A stretch of 64,000 nucleotides of DNA from positions 1 through 64,000 of the forward strand of contig NZ_SMAF01000014.1 of NCBI RefSeq assembly GCF_004343305.1. Reading direction: 5' to 3'. This document shows positions 29,051-37,465 of the stretch, one piece after another. The first letter of the stretch is position 1. Every line of letters starts with the position of its first letter. The translations under genes and the position numbers were made by a program. The notes under the pieces are model-generated. The model made no database searches, had not been told where the DNA came from, and saw nothing but the letters and a program-made list of their open reading frames with translations. Origin of the DNA: Pseudofulvimonas gallinarii. GTDB lineage: Bacteria; Pseudomonadota; Gammaproteobacteria; Xanthomonadales; UBA2363.

Positions 29051-29264
29051 GGATCGGTCCTCTTGAGGTCGTGTGTGAGCGGTCGGAACAGGAAGGGTCC
29101 CCGCTCCCGACTCGTGTTCCACGCAGTATCACCCAGGCGGGGCCGAGCGAGTGTCGCCTGGCCAGCCCAAGCGGTGTTGTGACGCGCCAGATAGGCTTCG
29201 AACGGCAGCGACATCCACCGGAAGGCAGTGGCTGCAAGGTACTTCTCGCCCTGCAAGACACGAG

Positions 29265-29312
29265 ACACCACATATCGTGTTGACGAAGCACAATGCGCCC
29301 ATTATGTTGTGG
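29265..29312 (+). promoter_or_regulatory. Two putative NrdR boxes
   Basis: ACACCACATATCGTGT (29265-29280) matches the NrdR box ACACwATATaTwGTGT at 13 of 16 positions. A weaker copy, GCCCATTATGTTGTGG (29297-29312), starts 32 bases later, about three helical turns, as is usual for paired NrdR sites. NrdR is the ATP-cone repressor of ribonucleotide reductase genes. Box 1 ends at the -35 element and box 2 covers the -10, so binding would block RNA polymerase. nrdR itself is not in this window. The consensus is from memory. Confidence 0.65.
29280..29308 (+). promoter_or_regulatory. Sigma-70-type promoter of the nrd operon
   Basis: TTGACG (29280-29285, five of six to consensus), a 17-base spacer, and TATGTT (29303-29308, four of six). 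Predicted transcription would start near 29315, directly before the cobalamin riboswitch. It is embedded between and across the two NrdR-like boxes. Confidence 0.6.
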
Positions 29313-29315
29313 TCG

Positions 29316-29503
29316 TCGGTTTCTGGAGGCGCAACCTCCGGGATTAAAAGGGAAGTCGGTGGCGCCTTCGAGGCCATTCCGGCACTGCCCCGCAGCGGTA
29401 ATCGGGAACGAACCCGCCATCAGCACTGGGGCCAAAACCCTGGGAAGCGGCGGACCAGGAGAAGCTCAGGCTTCGCGCCCGTAAGTCCGAAGACCTGCCG
29501 ACA
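29316..29503 (+). promoter_or_regulatory. Cobalamin (B12) riboswitch
   Basis: The leader has the landmarks of the cobalamin family in order. They are AAAAGGGAA (about 29346), GGCACTGCCCCGCAGCGGTA (about 29382-29401, core junction), GGGAACGAACCCGCC, GCACTGGGGCC, CTGGGAAGCGG, and the closing GTAAGTCCGAAGACCTGCCG (29481-29500). The riboswitch binds cobalamin and normally represses the downstream gene. A GC-rich hairpin after it (CCGCGCG at 29505-29511 with CGCGCGG at 29521-29527) may be part of the expression platform. The controlled operon is class Ia nrdAB, whose enzyme does not need B12. The exact 5' edge is uncertain by some 10 bases. Confidence 0.9.
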
Positions 29504-29673
29504 GCCGCGCGCATGCACGCCGCGCGGTGCCGGCCGCGGATCTCCGGGGGGAGATGGCTGGCGAAACAGAGGCCGCGCTTTGTGTCTCCGTGTCGCCACA
29601 CCCTCCTGTCATCCCTGCCAACCACGCCTTCGAGGGACAGGCGCGGGACCGTGCGTTGCATGGAGAAGTTCCG

Positions 29674-32103
29674 ATGACCCCAGTCAGCCCCGTTGTCAGC
29701 GAGGCGGAAACCGGCGCGCGTGCCGAATCCGCGTTCGCGCTGACCCCGCCGCCCACCGTCACCAGCATGCGTGTAACGAAACGCAATGGCGCGAGTGAGC
29801 CTGTCGACCTCAACAAGATCGTCCGAGCAGTGACGCGCGCCGCGGAAGGCCTGCATGCGGTCGACCCGATGCGGGTGGCCACTCGCACCATTTCCGGCCT
29901 CTACAACGGCGCAACCACGCGCGAACTGGATGAACTGTCGATCCGCACCGCCGCACTGCTGACGGGCGAAGAGCCGGAATACAGCCGTCTGGCGGCACGC
30001 CTGCTCGCCAGCGTGATAGCGAAAGAAGTGTCCGGACAGGAAATCCACGCCTTCTCGCAGTCCATTGCACGCGGCCACGAAGTCGGCCTGATCAATAACC
30101 GCCTGCTCGCCTTCGTCCAGGCCAACGCACGCAAGCTCAACGATGCGATCGACCCGGTCCTCGATCGCGAATTCGACTACTTCGGATTGCGCACGCTCTA
30201 CGACCGCTATCTGCTTCGTCACCCGCATACCCGCACGGTCATCGAAACGCCGCAGCAGTTTTTCCTGCGCATCGCCTGTGCCTTGAGCGAAGGCGTGCCG
30301 CAGGCACTCGAACTGTATCTGCGGCTGGCGCGTCTCGAATACCTGCCCAGTTCGCCAACGCTGTTCAACAGTGGCACCACCCATGAACAGCTGTCCTCGT
30401 GCTTTCTTCTCGACTCGCCGCAGGACACCCTCGAGTCCATTTATTCACGGTACGGCGACATCGCACAGCTCTCCAAGTTCAGCGGCGGCATTGGCGTCAG
30501 CTACACGCGCGTGCGATCCCGCGGCTCCCTGATCCGCTCCACGAATGGCCACAGCAACGGAATCGTGCCGTGGCTCAAGACCCTTGATTCTTCCGTTGCC
30601 GCCGTCAATCAGGGCGGCAAACGCAAGGGCGCAGCCTGCGTCTACCTTGAAACCTGGCACGGCGATATCGAGGAATTTCTCGAGCTGCGCGAGAACACTG
30701 GCGACGAGGCACGTCGCACACACAACCTCAATCTCGCCAACTGGGTGCCCGACCTGTTCATGCGTCGAGTCGAGGCCGATGCCGAATGGTCGCTGTTCGA
30801 CCCACGCGTCGTACCGGAGTTGACCGACCTCTATGGCGAGGCCTTCGAACAGGCCTACGCGCAGGCTGAGAGGAACGGCAAGGCGCTGCGCACGGTCCGT
30901 GCCCGCGATCTGTACGCGCGGATGATGCGGACACTGGCCCAGACCGGCAATGGATGGATGACCTTCAAGGACAAATGCAACCGGGCCAGCAACCAGACCG
31001 GCAAGCGCGGCAACGTGATCCATCTGTCGAACCTGTGCACGGAAATCCTCGAAGTCACGTCGAATGACGAAACCGCCGTCTGCAACCTGGGTTCGATCAA
31101 CCTCTCGCGTCATTTCGACGTCTACGGAGAATTTGACTTCACAAAGCTCGGCGATACCGTCCGACTGGCCGTGCGGCAACTTGATCGGGTGATTGACCTC
31201 AACTTCTATCCAATTGAATCCGCGCGTCGCGGCAACCTCCGCTGGCGTCCGGTGGGTCTGGGCGTCATGGGTCTGCAGGACGTGTTCTTCAAGCTGCGGC
31301 TCGCGTTTGACAGCGACGAAGCCCGGGCGCTGTCTGCACGCATTGCCGAAGAGATCTACTTCCACGCACTCGACGCCTCGAACGAACTGGCCATGTTGCT
31401 TGGAAAGCACCCCAGCTTCGCCGAAACCCGTGCTGCCGACGGCGAGCTGCAATTCGACGCCTGGGGTGTCATGCCGACAGACCCGGCGCGCTGGGATGCG
31501 TTGCGTGCCCGCATCCGCGAGCACGGGCTGCGCAATTCCCTGCTGCTGGCCATCGCACCAACGGCGACGATCGCGTCCATAGCCGGCTGCTACGAATGCA
31601 TCGAGCCGCAGACCAGCAACCTGTTCAAACGCGAAACGCTTTCCGGCGACTTCCTCCAGGTCAATCGTTACCTGGTCGACGAACTGAAAGGGCTGGGCCT
31701 GTGGACAGCGGATATTCGCGACACCATCAAGCAGGCCGAGGGGTCGATCCAGTCCATCGGCGCCATTCCGGTGCCGCTGCGCGAGATCTACCGGACGGTT
31801 TGGGAGGTGCCGATGCGTTCGCTGATCGATATGGCGGCCGACCGCGGCGCGTTTATTGACCAGTCGTCCTCGCTCAATCTCTTCATGGAGAGCCCGAGCA
31901 TCGGCGCGCTGTCGTCGATGTACATGTATGCATGGAAGCGTGGGCTGAAGACGACCTACTACCTTCGCTCCCGCCCGGCCACGCGGATCGCCAAGGCGAC
32001 CGTCGCCAGCGCCGGCGCGGCCGCCCCGCCAGCCGCCTATACGCCGACCGAAGCCCTCGCCTGCTCGCTGGAGAATCCGGAAAGCTGCGAGGCCTGCCAA
32101 TGA
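29674..32103 (+). CDS. nrdA: Class Ia ribonucleotide reductase, alpha subunit
   Basis: An 809-residue catalytic subunit that reduces ribonucleoside diphosphates. An N-terminal ATP-cone (V-T-K-R-N-G-A-S-E-P-V-D-L-N-K-I, about 34-49) indicates dATP feedback control. The active-site pair is Cys243 (S-S-C-F-L-L-D) and Cys470 (C-N-L-G-S-I-N-L), with the thiyl radical Cys455 and Glu457 in N-L-C-T-E-I. The tandem tyrosines of the radical path lie in T-T-Y-Y-L-R-S-R. The C-terminal C-E-A-C-Q supplies the redox shuttle cysteines. The ATG at 29674 has GGAG upstream; an earlier in-frame ATG (29527) lies within the riboswitch-distal leader. It overlaps nrdB by four bases (ATGA). Confidence 0.97.
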   Translation: MTPVSPVVSEAETGARAESAFALTPPPTVTSMRVTKRNGASEPVDLNKIVRAVTRAAEGLHAVDPMRVATRTISGLYNGATTRELDELSIRTAALLTGEEPEYSRLAARLLASVIAKEVSGQEIHAFSQSIARGHEVGLINNRLLAFVQANARKLNDAIDPVLDREFDYFGLRTLYDRYLLRHPHTRTVIETPQQFFLRIACALSEGVPQALELYLRLARLEYLPSSPTLFNSGTTHEQLSSCFLLDSPQDTLESIYSRYGDIAQLSKFSGGIGVSYTRVRSRGSLIRSTNGHSNGIVPWLKTLDSSVAAVNQGGKRKGAACVYLETWHGDIEEFLELRENTGDEARRTHNLNLANWVPDLFMRRVEADAEWSLFDPRVVPELTDLYGEAFEQAYAQAERNGKALRTVRARDLYARMMRTLAQTGNGWMTFKDKCNRASNQTGKRGNVIHLSNLCTEILEVTSNDETAVCNLGSINLSRHFDVYGEFDFTKLGDTVRLAVRQLDRVIDLNFYPIESARRGNLRWRPVGLGVMGLQDVFFKLRLAFDSDEARALSARIAEEIYFHALDASNELAMLLGKHPSFAETRAADGELQFDAWGVMPTDPARWDALRARIREHGLRNSLLLAIAPTATIASIAGCYECIEPQTSNLFKRETLSGDFLQVNRYLVDELKGLGLWTADIRDTIKQAEGSIQSIGAIPVPLREIYRTVWEVPMRSLIDMAADRGAFIDQSSSLNLFMESPSIGALSSMYMYAWKRGLKTTYYLRSRPATRIAKATVASAGAAAPPAAYTPTEALACSLENPESCEACQ

Positions 32104-33119
32104 GCACTTCAGATCGTCGACTGTTGCTCGACCCGGGCTTCGAGCTGACGCTGCGGCCCATGCGCTATCCGCAGTTCTACGAGATGTATCGCAATGCCGT
32201 CCGGAATACCTGGTCGGTCGAGGAGGTCGACTTCGCGCTGGACGTCAACGATCTCCGGCACAAGTTCGGGCCGGCGGAGCGCCATCTTGTCGAACGATTG
32301 ATCGCCTTTTTCGCCACCGGGGACTCGATCGTCTCCAACAACCTGGTGTTGAACCTCTATCAGCACATCAACGCCCCCGAAGCACGCATGTACCTGTCAC
32401 GGCAGCTGTACGAAGAAGCGCTGCACGTACAGTTCTACCTCACCCTGCTGGACACCTACCTGCCTGACCCGGCTGAACGGGCAAAGGCGTTCGCGGCCGT
32501 GGACACTATTCCGTCGATCCAGAAGAAGGCGGAATTCTGTTTCAAGTGGATCGATTCGATCCAGTCACTTCAGCGCATAGAAACCCGCGAGCAGCGCCGT
32601 CGGTTCCTGCTCAACCTGGTGTGCTTTGCCGCCTGCATCGAAGGTCTGTTCTTCTTCGCCGCGTTCGCCTACGTGTACTACCTGCGCTCACGGGGCCTGC
32701 TCCATGGACTTGCCAGCGGGACCAACTGGGTGTTCCGCGATGAAAGCGGCCACATGGCATTCGCCTTTGAAGTGATCCGCACCGCTCGCGAGGAGGAGCC
32801 GGATCTCGTCGATGATGCCTTTCGGCTTCAGGTCGTCAGCATGCTGACGGAGGCCGTCGAGTGCGAATACGGTTTCGCCGAGGACACGCTTTCCGGCGGC
32901 GTCGCCGGCATGTCGCTCAGGGATATGCGCGAATACCTGCAATACTGCGCCGACCAGCGCCTGGCGCAGCTCGGGTTTGCGAAGCATTTCGAATCACGCA
33001 ACCCGTTCCCGTTCATGGATCTGCAGGACGTGCAGGAGGTCACCAACTTCTTCGAGCGCCGCGTCTCCGCCTACCAGGTCGGCGTAGAAGGCGACGTGAG
33101 CTTCGATCATGCCTTCTGA
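32100..33119 (+). CDS. nrdB: Class Ia ribonucleotide reductase, beta subunit
   Basis: A 339-residue di-iron radical subunit. The ligands are all present: Asp75 (A-T-G-D-S-I), Glu106 and His109 (E-E-A-L-H), Glu181 (C-I-E-G-L-F), Glu215 and His218 (D-E-S-G-H). The radical-bearing tyrosine Tyr113 follows four residues after His109 (H-V-Q-F-Y). It is therefore a tyrosyl-radical class Ia/b-type protein and not the class Ic form. The start codon overlaps the nrdA stop (ATGA), which couples translation and keeps subunits balanced. It is controlled by the NrdR boxes and cobalamin riboswitch upstream of nrdA. Confidence 0.97.
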   Translation: MSTSDRRLLLDPGFELTLRPMRYPQFYEMYRNAVRNTWSVEEVDFALDVNDLRHKFGPAERHLVERLIAFFATGDSIVSNNLVLNLYQHINAPEARMYLSRQLYEEALHVQFYLTLLDTYLPDPAERAKAFAAVDTIPSIQKKAEFCFKWIDSIQSLQRIETREQRRRFLLNLVCFAACIEGLFFFAAFAYVYYLRSRGLLHGLASGTNWVFRDESGHMAFAFEVIRTAREEEPDLVDDAFRLQVVSMLTEAVECEYGFAEDTLSGGVAGMSLRDMREYLQYCADQRLAQLGFAKHFESRNPFPFMDLQDVQEVTNFFERRVSAYQVGVEGDVSFDHAF

Positions 33120-33514: not shown

Positions 33515-35005
33515 TCAGGACGCCGGTCGCCACAGCACCGGCTCGTAGTCGTCGCGGAAGAGGGGCGCTTCGCCGTCGGATTCCCAGGCGCCAGCATCGC
33601 AGCGGGCGCTGCCATCGGCGTCGCCATCTTTGGGCCGCGAGACGCCACGCGCGTCCACGGTCATGCAGGCGGCCAGGTCGGGCACGGAAGGGGGCACCGG
33701 ATTGCCCGCATCCAGGGCTGCGCCGCCAGCGCGCAAGGTCAGGCTTTCGACGGTACCCCCGTCGGCACGGAGCGCTTCGATGCGCAGCGCGTTGAGGGGC
33801 GTAGTGTTTTCCGGTCCGCAGCCCTGCATGTGGCCGGCGACGATGTTGTGGCCGGCGACGAGCGTGATGGCGCCGAGCGTGGCGCATTGCAGATCGGTGT
33901 TGCCGAGCAGCGGGATCATGAGATTGTTGCTGATGGTGATCGGCGTGGCGCCCGTCGCAGCCGTGCCGGTCAGACTCAGCTGCTGTGCCCCGCCTGGAAT
34001 CATCGGGTTGTTGTCGGCGAAGCTGTTGTTGCGGATCGCGATCATGGGATGTTGGCCCACTACGGCGGCACCACCGATGTTGCCCACGAAAGTGCTGTTG
34101 CGGACATGCAACTCCCCACTGACCGATTGCGCGTACACCGTTCCCTGCCCGTCCGCAACGTTTGCATGGAACAGGCTGTTCTCGATCACGAGCCTGCCGG
34201 CAGCCTCGGTATGGATCGCGCCGCCACGGGAATCAATGGTGCCGGAGGCGTGGTTGTCGACAAAACGGCTGCGGTCGATCAAGGTGTTGTACGGCCCGCT
34301 GATGTGGATCGCTCCTCCCCTGGCGATCCGCCCATCGGCGGCGGTTGCGCGATTGCCTGTGAAGCGGCTGTTATCGATCGTCAACTGCCGGACGCTGAAG
34401 GCCTCGACATGAAGGGCGCCGCCTCGCGTGTCATTGGCCGCCTGCGCTCCCGCAGGCAGAGTCCGCGAGTCTTCGAATCTGACGTTGCCGAGCGTCACAT
34501 TCCGGTCGTAGACGAACATGGCGGCACCATGAGAGCGGCCCGAGTGAGCCGTCGTGGCGCAACGTCGGAACTCGACATCATTCAGAACGATGCCGGCATT
34601 GGCGGCAACGGGTGCCATGGCGGCGAGGCAGCCACCCGCCTCGGGGCCAAGGCCGTCCTGGAAGATCAGATTCCTCACGGCCAGCGACCTGTTGTTCGAC
34701 CCGATCCTCAACAGCGGGGCGCTTCCGCCACCGCTGATCACGAGACCCGGCACGGCGGCGCCGTTGATGATCACGGAGTCGCGCTGGATAAAAGGCAGAT
34801 CGGACGTGATGGTTATTACCGTCGTCGGCGCAAGGCTGAAGTTGATGGTATGGGTTCCGCTCGTTGCGTTGACCAGCGAGATGGCCTCGCGAAAGCTGCC
34901 GGGGCCGCTGTCTGCGTTGGTCGTCACGGTGAACGTGGCGGCTGGCAAAGGGGTGGTTGCACAGACCAGTGTGCCCAGGAAAGCGAGGCGATAACGAAGC
35001 TGCAT
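33515..35005 (-). CDS. Secreted right-handed beta-helix protein with LFRDDYEP tail, paralog 1
   Basis: A 496-residue exported protein with a signal peptide (MQLRYRLAFLGTLVCATTPLPAATF). It begins T-V-T-T-N-A-D-S-G-P-G-S-F-R-E-A-I, a variant of the CSLREAI opening of secreted beta-helix proteins. Many rungs follow with G-G-A-(I/L)-H and N-N-x-F/N-S-x-F patterns. The end has A-L-D-A-G-N-P and C-D-A-G-A-W-E, as in choice-of-anchor Q domains, then LFRDDYEP (33539-33562) and V-L-W-R-P-A-S. The start ATG (35003-35005) is chosen because it opens the signal peptide. The neighbour upstream on the same strand is a paralog. Probably a surface or matrix protein; no catalytic residues identified. Confidence 0.75.
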   Translation of the reverse strand: MQLRYRLAFLGTLVCATTPLPAATFTVTTNADSGPGSFREAISLVNATSGTHTINFSLAPTTVITITSDLPFIQRDSVIINGAAVPGLVISGGGSAPLLRIGSNNRSLAVRNLIFQDGLGPEAGGCLAAMAPVAANAGIVLNDVEFRRCATTAHSGRSHGAAMFVYDRNVTLGNVRFEDSRTLPAGAQAANDTRGGALHVEAFSVRQLTIDNSRFTGNRATAADGRIARGGAIHISGPYNTLIDRSRFVDNHASGTIDSRGGAIHTEAAGRLVIENSLFHANVADGQGTVYAQSVSGELHVRNSTFVGNIGGAAVVGQHPMIAIRNNSFADNNPMIPGGAQQLSLTGTAATGATPITISNNLMIPLLGNTDLQCATLGAITLVAGHNIVAGHMQGCGPENTTPLNALRIEALRADGGTVESLTLRAGGAALDAGNPVPPSVPDLAACMTVDARGVSRPKDGDADGSARCDAGAWESDGEAPLFRDDYEPVLWRPAS

Positions 35006-35138
35006 GGGGGTGATCTCAAGATTGGTCGGGGATGCCGGCGCGGACGCTGCGCCCGGCTGGGCGGGCGTTGTCGGCGTAATGGGCTGGCCGGCGTGTACGG
35101 ACTTGCGGCGCATGCGCCGTCAAGAGGGCAGGCCTGAG

Positions 35139-36686
35139 TCAGAAGGCCGCTGCTGCAGGTTCCGGGCGCCACAGCACCGGCTGGAAGTCGTCCCGGAACA
35201 GGGGCGCCTCGCGCTGCGACTCCCAGGCGCCGACATCGCAAATGGCCTCACCGTCGCCGTCGCCGTCGCGTGGTCGCGGAAAGTAGCGGGCGTCATTGGT
35301 CTGGCAGCGGGTCGGGTCGTTGGCCAGCGGCGGCAAGGGATTGCCTGCGTCGAGGATTGGGCTCCCCTGAAGTACCGACACCGTTTCCACCAGGCCGCCA
35401 TTGTCGCGAAGGGCCTCGATGCGCAGGTCGGCGGCATCCGGATCAAGGGTAGGGCCACAGTCGTTCGCGGCGCCGTAGATCTGGTTGTGATGGTGTTCGA
35501 CATCCACGCCCTCGTGGATCTGGCAAAGCGGTCGCGCCGGGTCTGGCCAGCGGCTGTCGGCGGGTCCGAACAGGTTGTGGCCGAGAATCAACGCATTCGG
35601 CGTCGTGCCGTGGCCCGCTACGCGAAGATGTGGAAGGGGGTGTCCCGGACTGATCCATGACAGGAAGGTGTTGTTGATCAGCGATGCATCGGCCACGGCG
35701 TACAGAAAGATGGATGTGCCGAATTCCGTCCGGTTGGCGACCAGCGTGTTGTTGTGGATCCGTACAAAGGAGCCTGGACTCCACCCCATCTCCAGATTGA
35801 TCATCGTGCCGATCGAATCGTTGTCGAAGAACAGGTTGTTCTTTAGGGACGTCGACATGGTCGACTTGATGATGCCGCCCATGTCTGTACTGAAATCGAG
35901 CGTTCGCCCCTGGTTGGCGATGATTCGACTGCCCTCCACTACGATCAAACCGCTGCCGGAGGCATCGATCACTGCGCCCTTGGCGCGGCAGCAGCCGCTT
36001 CCGCTTGCGGATGAACCGGTCACGCGATTGGCGATGAACTGACTGTCCTGAATGAGTACGGTGTGCTGGCTTTCGATGACAACGGCTATCGCGCCACCGG
36101 TCGCGACCGTGGCCAGACCGGGATCCACAGAATAGGTCTCGTTGTCGAGGAACTGACTGTTGATTACGGACATGTCCCGCCCTTCCAGGTAAATCGCCCC
36201 GCCCGAGACGGTCTCGTTGCTGGCGTTGCGAACCGCCTGGCAGCCGCGCATGACCACCGTGTCCAGGGTCACCTTTCCAGCGGTGGTCTTCGTGGGCGCC
36301 TGTACGAACAGGCATCCGCCGCGCCGGCTGCCACGGCCCCGCCGGACCTCGATGTTCGCCAGGGTGAACTCGCTGTTCGGCCCGGCGACATGGAACAACC
36401 GCACGACGTCGGCGCCATCAAGGACCAGACCAGGCACGTTGGCGCCGTCGATGCTCAGGACGCTGCTGATGACCGGAACCGGCTGGTGCTGCATCGCTAT
36501 GACACTGTCCGCGGGCAGATCGAAAGCGATGCTGTGTGGACCGGGAATCTGGTTGGAATCGTCGATCGCCTGGTAAAGCGTGCCCGGGCCGACGCTGGCG
36601 GTGGACGTCACGGTGAAGGTGTCGGCTCGGGCCTGGCCTGATGCGACAGCGATCAGAACAGCGGCGAAAAGGGTCGGTCTGGACAT
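35139..36686 (-). CDS. Secreted right-handed beta-helix protein with LFRDDFQP tail, paralog 2
   Basis: A 515-residue paralog of the next gene downstream. Signal peptide MSRPTLFAAVLIAVASGQARA, then T-F-T-V-T-S-T-A-S-V-G-P-G-T-L-Y-Q-A-I. Beta-helix rungs follow with repeated G-G-A-I and N-N-x-F segments, for example N-N-L-F-F-D-N-D and H-N-N-T-L-V-A-N-R. The end matches its paralog closely: L-R-I-E-A-L-R-D-N-G-G, I-L-D-A-G-N-P-L-P-P, P-R-D-G-D-G-D-G-E-A-I-C-D-V-G-A-W-E-S, LFRDDFQP (35178-35201) and V-L-W-R-P. A D-G-D-G-D-G run could bind calcium. Tandem duplication is the simplest explanation for the pair. The start is the ATG at 36684-36686. The function is unknown. Confidence 0.75.
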   Translation of the reverse strand: MSRPTLFAAVLIAVASGQARADTFTVTSTASVGPGTLYQAIDDSNQIPGPHSIAFDLPADSVIAMQHQPVPVISSVLSIDGANVPGLVLDGADVVRLFHVAGPNSEFTLANIEVRRGRGSRRGGCLFVQAPTKTTAGKVTLDTVVMRGCQAVRNASNETVSGGAIYLEGRDMSVINSQFLDNETYSVDPGLATVATGGAIAVVIESQHTVLIQDSQFIANRVTGSSASGSGCCRAKGAVIDASGSGLIVVEGSRIIANQGRTLDFSTDMGGIIKSTMSTSLKNNLFFDNDSIGTMINLEMGWSPGSFVRIHNNTLVANRTEFGTSIFLYAVADASLINNTFLSWISPGHPLPHLRVAGHGTTPNALILGHNLFGPADSRWPDPARPLCQIHEGVDVEHHHNQIYGAANDCGPTLDPDAADLRIEALRDNGGLVETVSVLQGSPILDAGNPLPPLANDPTRCQTNDARYFPRPRDGDGDGEAICDVGAWESQREAPLFRDDFQPVLWRPEPAAAAF

Positions 36687-36862
36687 GTCGTATTCCGGGA
36701 AGAGGGCTGTCGTGGCCGCGGCGTATGGCGCGCGCTGCCCGTGTGTCTGTCTAAACACCGTTCCTGGTCGATCCCGGACATCGAGCCGTGATGTTCCGGT
36801 CGATGTCCGCTTTCCGGTGTTGGCGGCGTTAAACAGCCAGCCACAGCACGGAAATCGCAGAC

Positions 36863-37465
36863 ATGAATCCATGTCTTCCCAGCCGCCTCTTCACCGTGTT
36901 CGCGCCGGTTCTGGTTGCCTGCGGCCAAAGCCCTGACGCGGCCGAGACATCGATAGGTCCCGGACTGGCCGCTGCACCCACGCCACCCACGGCGCGCGCC
37001 AGAGAAAGGACGCCGCGCAGCCGGATTGAATTGACCGTCGACGGCCAACCGGTGCGCGCGACCGTCGCCACCAGCCTGCGCCATACGTATCTGCATGATC
37101 CGGCGGATCCCCGCTTTGACCTGGAACTGACCAGTTCATGGCTGGACGGGTCGACAATGGGGCAGCTCCGGCTCGACATCCTCCAGGTGGCGGCAGCGCG
37201 GCATCGCTTCCCCCTTGGCGACGCGGCCAAGGAGTCGGCCACGTTGATCCTGTCCGGCCTTCCCGGTCTGGACGGCGCGCGCTGGCGTTCGGTTTCGGGC
37301 AGCCTGGAACTGGACTTCGACATCGAGGATCCGCGCACGCATCCGGTCAGTCGTGCCTCCGGCACCTTCGACGGTCTTTTCCAGGAACTGCTGCCAGACG
37401 GGAACACGCCTGTGCAAGGTGGCCGGGCCCTGCCCGTCAGCGGCAGCTTCCAGTTCCAGCGTTAG
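36863..37465 (+). CDS. Putative lipoprotein of unknown function, paralog 1
   Basis: A 200-residue protein with a lipoprotein signal: hydrophobic stretch then V-L-V-A-C-G (Cys20). Mature part: a short Pro/Ala-rich linker, then a beta-rich domain with I-E-L-T-V-D-G-Q-P-V-R-A, D-P-A-D-P-R-F-D-L-E-L-T-S-S-W and A-R-W-R-S-V-S-G-S-L-E-L-D-F. The next gene encodes a paralog with the same blocks. I recognise no family. The ATG at 36863 lies 176 bases from the divergent beta-helix gene. It probably leads the operon with the second lipoprotein and the von Willebrand A protein. Confidence 0.68.
   Translation: MNPCLPSRLFTVFAPVLVACGQSPDAAETSIGPGLAAAPTPPTARARERTPRSRIELTVDGQPVRATVATSLRHTYLHDPADPRFDLELTSSWLDGSTMGQLRLDILQVAAARHRFPLGDAAKESATLILSGLPGLDGARWRSVSGSLELDFDIEDPRTHPVSRASGTFDGLFQELLPDGNTPVQGGRALPVSGSFQFQR

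Follow-up and report, generated by a model that had tools for sequence, protein, structure and literature searches.

The class Ia ribonucleotide reductase operon nrdAB of Pseudofulvimonas gallinarii is, as judged from its sequence, very probably governed by a two-layer off-switch, in which NrdR boxes over the promoter are followed by a B12 riboswitch in the leader, and a class II reductase, NrdJ, is encoded alongside in the genome. Comparison with relatives shows that the predicted aptamer is kept almost solely where nrdJ occurs, and that the promoter and the putative NrdR boxes mostly stay. The operon lies in the window that we analysed, a stretch of 64,000 nucleotides from a 3.45 Mb genome that is 100% complete. 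Its features follow one another 5' to 3' as box 1, the -35 element, box 2 over the -10 element, the cobalamin aptamer, two hairpins, nrdA and nrdB. An initial placement of the window in the Lysobacteraceae was dropped, since the grouping of our class-wide sample puts the source genome in the order of Pseudoxanthomonas (Lysobacterales / Xanthomonadales) and in a different family.

The nrdA gene (29674..32103, + strand) encodes the alpha subunit of a class I ribonucleotide reductase and includes an ATP-cone (TIGR02506, 717.8 bits; PF02867, PF00317, PF03477) and nrdB (32100..33119, + strand) encodes the beta subunit (PF00268), the nrdA stop and the nrdB ATG overlapping as ATGA. NrdB keeps the motif E-x-x-H-x-x-x-Y, whose tyrosine aligns with the one that we take to be the radical tyrosine in 3hf1, an M2 B subunit. 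By the PF03477 ATP-cone of the predicted NrdA and the kept tyrosine of NrdB, we assign the reductase to class Ia. The end of nrdB is overlapped by a thioesterase-like frame that scores under its family cut-off. ATG 29674 is most likely the nrdA start, and a start codon lies close by in the 30 relatives inspected. Starts at ATG 29554 (after GGGGGGAG) or GTG 29527 were rejected: the ATG is not kept in relatives, and the sequence is that of the covarying P13-like hairpin described below. Elsewhere in the window (33515-36872, - strand), two adjacent long frames encode proteins that are, by eye, mutually similar and beta-helix-repeat-like in look.

A sigma-70-like promoter scan of 29150-29760 returned this promoter alone, with 0.1 matches expected; it consists of the -35 element TTGACG (29280..29285, + strand) and, 17 bases after it, the -10 element TATGTT (29303..29308, + strand). 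NrdR-like box 1, ACACCACATATCGTGT (29265..29280, + strand), matches the consensus at 13/16 positions, and box 2, GCCCATTATGTTGTGG (29297..29312, + strand), covers the -10 element. The boxes are 32 bases apart from start to start, with a gap of 16 bp. The consensus used for scoring is its own reverse complement, and a pair had to reach a sum of at least 22, with each box at 9 or more, at a spacing of 31 or 32. In the 64-kb window the pair upstream of nrdA is the sole one passing that sum at these spacings, and when the 720-bp upstream region was simulated 3000 times with a first-order Markov model, no run reached its score. When the best pair score was averaged over 72 non-redundant nrdA upstream regions (out of 81), spacing 32 gave 21.8 and spacings outside 30-34 gave 16.8 (sd 0.5, highest 18.4); a sum of at least 21 at spacing 31 or 32 is found in 65/72. 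Spacings 30 and 34 are also elevated in these 72 regions (19.6 and 19.9), which we infer to be an effect of the motif's internal repeat. Under a loose TTGAC plus -10 search, 78/81 regions have a match in the 800 bp upstream, a count that carries no chance control. The letters, the promoter scan and the spacing control together uphold the description in the sequence-only reading of TTGACG-17-TATGTT under two NrdR-like boxes 32 bases apart. In four relatives (L049, L054, L055 and L064) the best 32-bp pair uses a box-like sequence 3' of box 2, within the aptamer, which recalls the downstream box reported at E. coli nrdAB.

Box 2 has just 11/16 matches to the consensus and lies on the -10 element, so that some of its conservation is what any promoter would show. 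Spacing by itself is no proof of NrdR binding either, because NrdR bound weakly to the box pair of the E. coli nrdAB promoter, which is likewise 16 bp apart (PMC12176259). The riboswitch might thus be real and NrdR inactive here, with the box-like repeats being conserved surroundings of the promoter. We nevertheless consider this unlikely. The pair score has its maximum at spacing 32, well over other spacings; apart from the one base that it has in common with the -35 element, box 1 falls clear of the promoter hexamers; and an NrdR-like pair is also found upstream of nrdJ. According to PMC12051234, moreover, the usual gap between NrdR boxes is 15-16 bp, and NrdR binds two Listeria pairs whose gap is 16 bp at 2-5 nM.

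The second layer was proposed as a full cobalamin riboswitch in the leader, and a covariance-model scan agrees: cmscan matches the whole of RF00174 (model positions 1-189/189) at 29300..29516 on the + strand with 111 bits (gathering score 31.5, E 6e-27). The end originally given for the element, 29503, proved slightly short, as the Rfam match runs to 29516 and the platform hairpins to 29562. At the 3' end of the aptamer core lies the B12-box-like sequence AGTCCGAAGACCTGCC (29484..29499, + strand), whose last 12 bases are invariant across 35 aligned leaders. It is followed by a platform hairpin between P1 and P13 (29504..29528, + strand; 8 pairs, which hold in 99.6% of cells across 35 leaders and of which 2 are changed on both sides) and by the proposed P13 hairpin (29529..29562, + strand; 12 pairs in two helices, 6 of them changed on both sides), which comprises the second and third platform helices and presents L13, GGGG, at 29546-29549. 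In an alignment of 35 of the 52 switch-bearing leaders, hand-picked in good part for holding the hairpin motif and itself the source of the structure that was scored, 98.4% of cells in the three helices are paired, as against 28 to 58% in slid controls. Eight platform pairs are changed on both sides, a number matched by 0/500 shuffles, while further pair types are hardly above chance (16 versus 15.1 in shuffles, with 69/500 shuffles as high).

A pairing of the proposed L5 kissing loop, CCCCG (29388..29392, + strand), with L13 is possible. L5 is identical in 51/51 aptamers and complementary to the GGGG of L13, so the putative contact comes without covariation support; the published L5 consensus is UCCCG (PMC10653944). 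With that consensus the GGGG loop fits, and the GCAC loop of the preceding hairpin (29504-29528) was rejected as L13. The fold energy of the whole leader is no better than that of shuffles (z 0.01). Downstream of nrdA, Lysobacter prati carries a second cobalamin riboswitch (L073:8082-8259).

A B12 switch on nrdAB had been taken to imply a class II enzyme in the same cell, and the source genome does encode NrdJ (591 bits). The search for nrdR was equally productive, returning a protein of 198.4 bits to TIGR00244 with a Zn-ribbon (PF22811) and an ATP-cone (PF03477); its gene is some 55 kb away from nrdJ on the contig that they share, beside genes that look glyA- and ribD-like by eye. A CobA-type adenosyltransferase was rejected when a search of the source genome with TIGR00708 gave no match; a PduO-type enzyme was found in its stead (PF01923, 199.8 bits). 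A second cobalamin riboswitch in the genome (110.3 bits) precedes a gene for a BtuB-like receptor, which scores 486.9 bits to TIGR01779, under the cut-off of 599.7, in a frame cut by the end of the analysed locus. The genome thus holds nrdJ, a BtuB-like receptor and a PduO-type adenosyltransferase, where a lack of nrdJ or of B12 uptake or synthesis genes had been named beforehand as evidence against the proposal. Upstream of nrdJ in the source genome the NrdR-like boxes again have a spacing of 32, and nrdJ has no riboswitch match, both riboswitches found in the genome lying on other contigs (150/237 candidates scored). In the nrdJ upstream regions of relatives (n=38), pair scores are highest at spacings 31, 33 and 32, with weaker second boxes.

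To compare leaders we used as relatives the best 80 of 583 NrdA loci. By title these come mostly from Lysobacteraceae genera, with some MAGs named to phylum only, one Tahibacter and one Tolypothrix assembly, and the highest NrdA identity among them is 85% (Luteimonas aestuarii). Co-occurrence was counted in 79 genomes, namely the source and 78 relatives; L073, which has the switch, and L038, which gave no match, were left out. A switch directly before nrdA and an nrdJ over the family cut-off are both present in 48 genomes and both absent from 27, with the switch only in three and nrdJ only in one; the switch therefore stands at nrdA in 48/49 genomes with nrdJ versus 3/30 without. Among the three switch-only genomes, L063 has a frame-split nrdJ (369.7 + 190.2 bits), L051 is a MAG, and L076 is an assembly of 9.5 Mb that carries a cyanobacterial title and that we take to be mixed. 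The one nrdJ-only genome, Stenotrophomonas sp. ISL-67 (L029), has no switch at nrdA. Horizontal gain of nrdJ in this strain was considered and found no support, as the gene neighbourhood is alike by eye and a quick tree of 41 NrdJ sequences (out of 46 loci) places its protein among those of Pseudoxanthomonas and Stenotrophomonas. The riboswitch scans of the relatives scored part of the candidates; full rescans of L029, L038, L056, L058 and L075 (5/29 switch-less loci) gave no riboswitch match. A B12-box pattern was found in 0/29 switch-less loci, and this pattern also missed L081, which carries a switch.

The NrdJ sequences themselves showed one further feature. In Stenotrophomonas sp. ISL-67 (G027, L144:4387-7845) NrdJ is interrupted by an insert that matches LAGLIDADG_3 at 80 bits and, below threshold, an intein-splicing domain. 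In G064, G065 and G078 NrdJ lies in long open frames and is split at about that profile position (276-282).

Could the co-occurrence of switch and nrdJ stem from shared ancestry, with one loss in Stenotrophomonas sampled repeatedly? The NrdA tree needs just three changes of the switch among the 79 genomes, all of them independent losses, and the raw Fisher value over these genomes consequently overstates the evidence. A sign test on independent pairs among the relatives has three pairs to work with, which puts 0.05 out of reach. Across random pairings, however, nrdJ goes in the same direction as the switch in 2.6/3 pairs on average and never in the opposite direction. A broader view came from a class-wide sample of 115 genomes, one per family code and the source genome included, in which 58 genomes have a class I alpha subunit among the matches listed; weaker matches are absent from these, so some genomes are missing. 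Its riboswitch scan used stricter filters, scored the best 20 or fewer candidates per genome and disregarded contig ends. With two genomes of ambiguous nrdJ excluded (G106, with a switch, and G175, without), the switch stands at nrdA in 10/19 genomes with nrdJ versus 0/37 without. Removal of the two genomes of the source organism's own order leaves 8/17 versus 0/37 (Fisher p 2e-5), and we regard shared ancestry as a very unlikely account of the association. For these counts, matches that score 400-409 bits, just above the NrdJ cut-off, and stop at profile position 592 were assigned to class I; when the cut-off alone defines nrdJ, six genomes switch sides, giving 10/25 versus 0/31 (p 9e-5, or p 5e-4 minus the own order). 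The predicted link between nrdJ and a B12 switch on nrdAB therefore held, with few exceptions, in the 79 genomes and in the class-wide sample. The switch is not obligatory, because 9/19 class-sample genomes with both enzymes lack it. In three families of this sample (G106:C90, G154:C127 and G192:C36) the aptamer before nrdA spans just 125 to 151 bases and scores a low 35 to 41 bits, and is perhaps of another subtype.

Leaders without the switch retain much of what surrounds it. The NrdR box pair is kept in most of them, and a loose TTGAC-type promoter lies within 800 bp in 27/29, as in 51/52 switch leaders, again counted with no chance control. We built an nhmmer profile from the aptamers of 50 relatives and that of the window (51 in all, L081 left out), and with it detected aptamer remnants in 6/29 switch-less leaders, all from Stenotrophomonas (E 0.0024 or less), while 0/580 shuffled leaders gave a positive score. 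The remnant is the 5' half of the aptamer in L040 and L041 and the 3' half in L021, L025, L026 and L030; the other 23/29 switch-less leaders gave nothing significant in this search. The hairpin TCTCCGGGGGGAGA is unchanged in 6/29 switch-less leaders (L017, L021, L025, L026, L029 and L030) and nearly unchanged in two more, L013 and L016. The remnants argue that in Stenotrophomonas the switch was lost rather than never acquired. It is fairly probable that in these relatives the aptamer is a removable module, set between nrdA and an NrdR promoter that stays constant; the aptamer would decay to fossils once nrdJ is gone, and its P13 hairpin can outlast the core. The odds of this reading are lowered because the six remnant leaders form two small clades in the NrdA tree, and so count as two cases. 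If the removable-module reading is true, L029 would be a lineage losing its switch before nrdJ.

The genome of S. maltophilia D457 (G025) encodes a second class I-type alpha subunit with no Pfam ATP-cone match (L145:1059-3617), which may stand in for NrdJ. Similar partial alpha-subunit matches occur in 19/41 genomes, none with nrdJ over the cut-off, D457 being the one that was read.

An activating corrinoid riboswitch is on record (PMC10653944) and decay of such leaders is evident from the remnants, yet that cobalamin should activate nrdAB here, or that the aptamer should be a functionless relic, is hardly credible. The source aptamer is complete and its platform has pair-keeping changes. Its tendency to be found together with nrdJ, moreover, is what one would expect if it repressed an isozyme that needs no B12, a role that has been reported or proposed in Streptomyces, Propionibacterium acnes and delta-proteobacteria.

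Together these data support a model of two successive off-signals. First, as the conserved boxes suggest, NrdR carrying dATP together with ATP or ADP would bind both boxes and cover the -35 and -10 elements, and nrdAB transcription would be repressed when dNTPs suffice; nrdJ is probably under the same repressor. Second, the leader RNA, whose aptamer is recognised by the covariance model, would bind adenosylcobalamin or a related corrinoid. The L5-L13 kissing contact would then stabilise P13 and nrdAB expression would fall, leaving NrdJ to carry the work while B12 is available. Since the operator lies over the promoter and the aptamer in the leader, the dNTP and B12 signals would act in series. 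Shut-off probably occurs at translation or by Rho, because no U-tailed intrinsic terminator was found in the leader, an absence of little weight with 0.5 expected in shuffles. The distance from the P13-like hairpin to the nrdA start differs between species, which disfavours simple burial of the start, and we infer that shut-off would work through Rho or by acting on translation over a longer range.

In Streptomyces coelicolor the ribonucleotide reductase genes are under NrdR control. The class Ia operon nrdABS of that organism, which has a class II NrdJ in its genome, is also under an adenosylcobalamin riboswitch (Borovok et al. 2006, cited in PMC4991794). It differs from nrdAB here in being an actinobacterial operon with nrdS, and the title of the cited work speaks of transcription control, whereas we found no U-tailed terminator. 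As described in PMC3848588, P. acnes nrdAB likewise has an NrdR box over the promoter and a leader annotated with a cobalamin riboswitch, and the cell has a cobalamin-dependent NrdJ. P. acnes nrdAB has one NrdR box, however, where the source genome has a pair, and its nrdR is co-transcribed with nrdJ, unlike the distant nrdR found here. In delta-proteobacteria the same logic has been proposed for a B12-independent reductase under a B12 element with NrdJ present, although that reductase is the class III NrdDG (PMC545781) and not class Ia NrdAB. In P. aeruginosa, B12 is described as slightly lowering nrd expression, independently of a riboswitch (PMC5962746).

The logic of a B12-switched isozyme was thus already known, and the value of the present work is its comparative evidence. 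Judged from listings of the literature on Xanthomonadales, Xanthomonas, Stenotrophomonas and Lysobacter, we recognised no report of a riboswitch on nrdAB in these groups. The double control by NrdR and B12 that was described in actinobacteria would now extend to a gammaproteobacterial order. This order offers a natural test, in which genera that have NrdJ can be set against genera that lack it behind the same promoter, and its decaying switches may reveal the fate of a riboswitch once the enzyme that justified it is absent.
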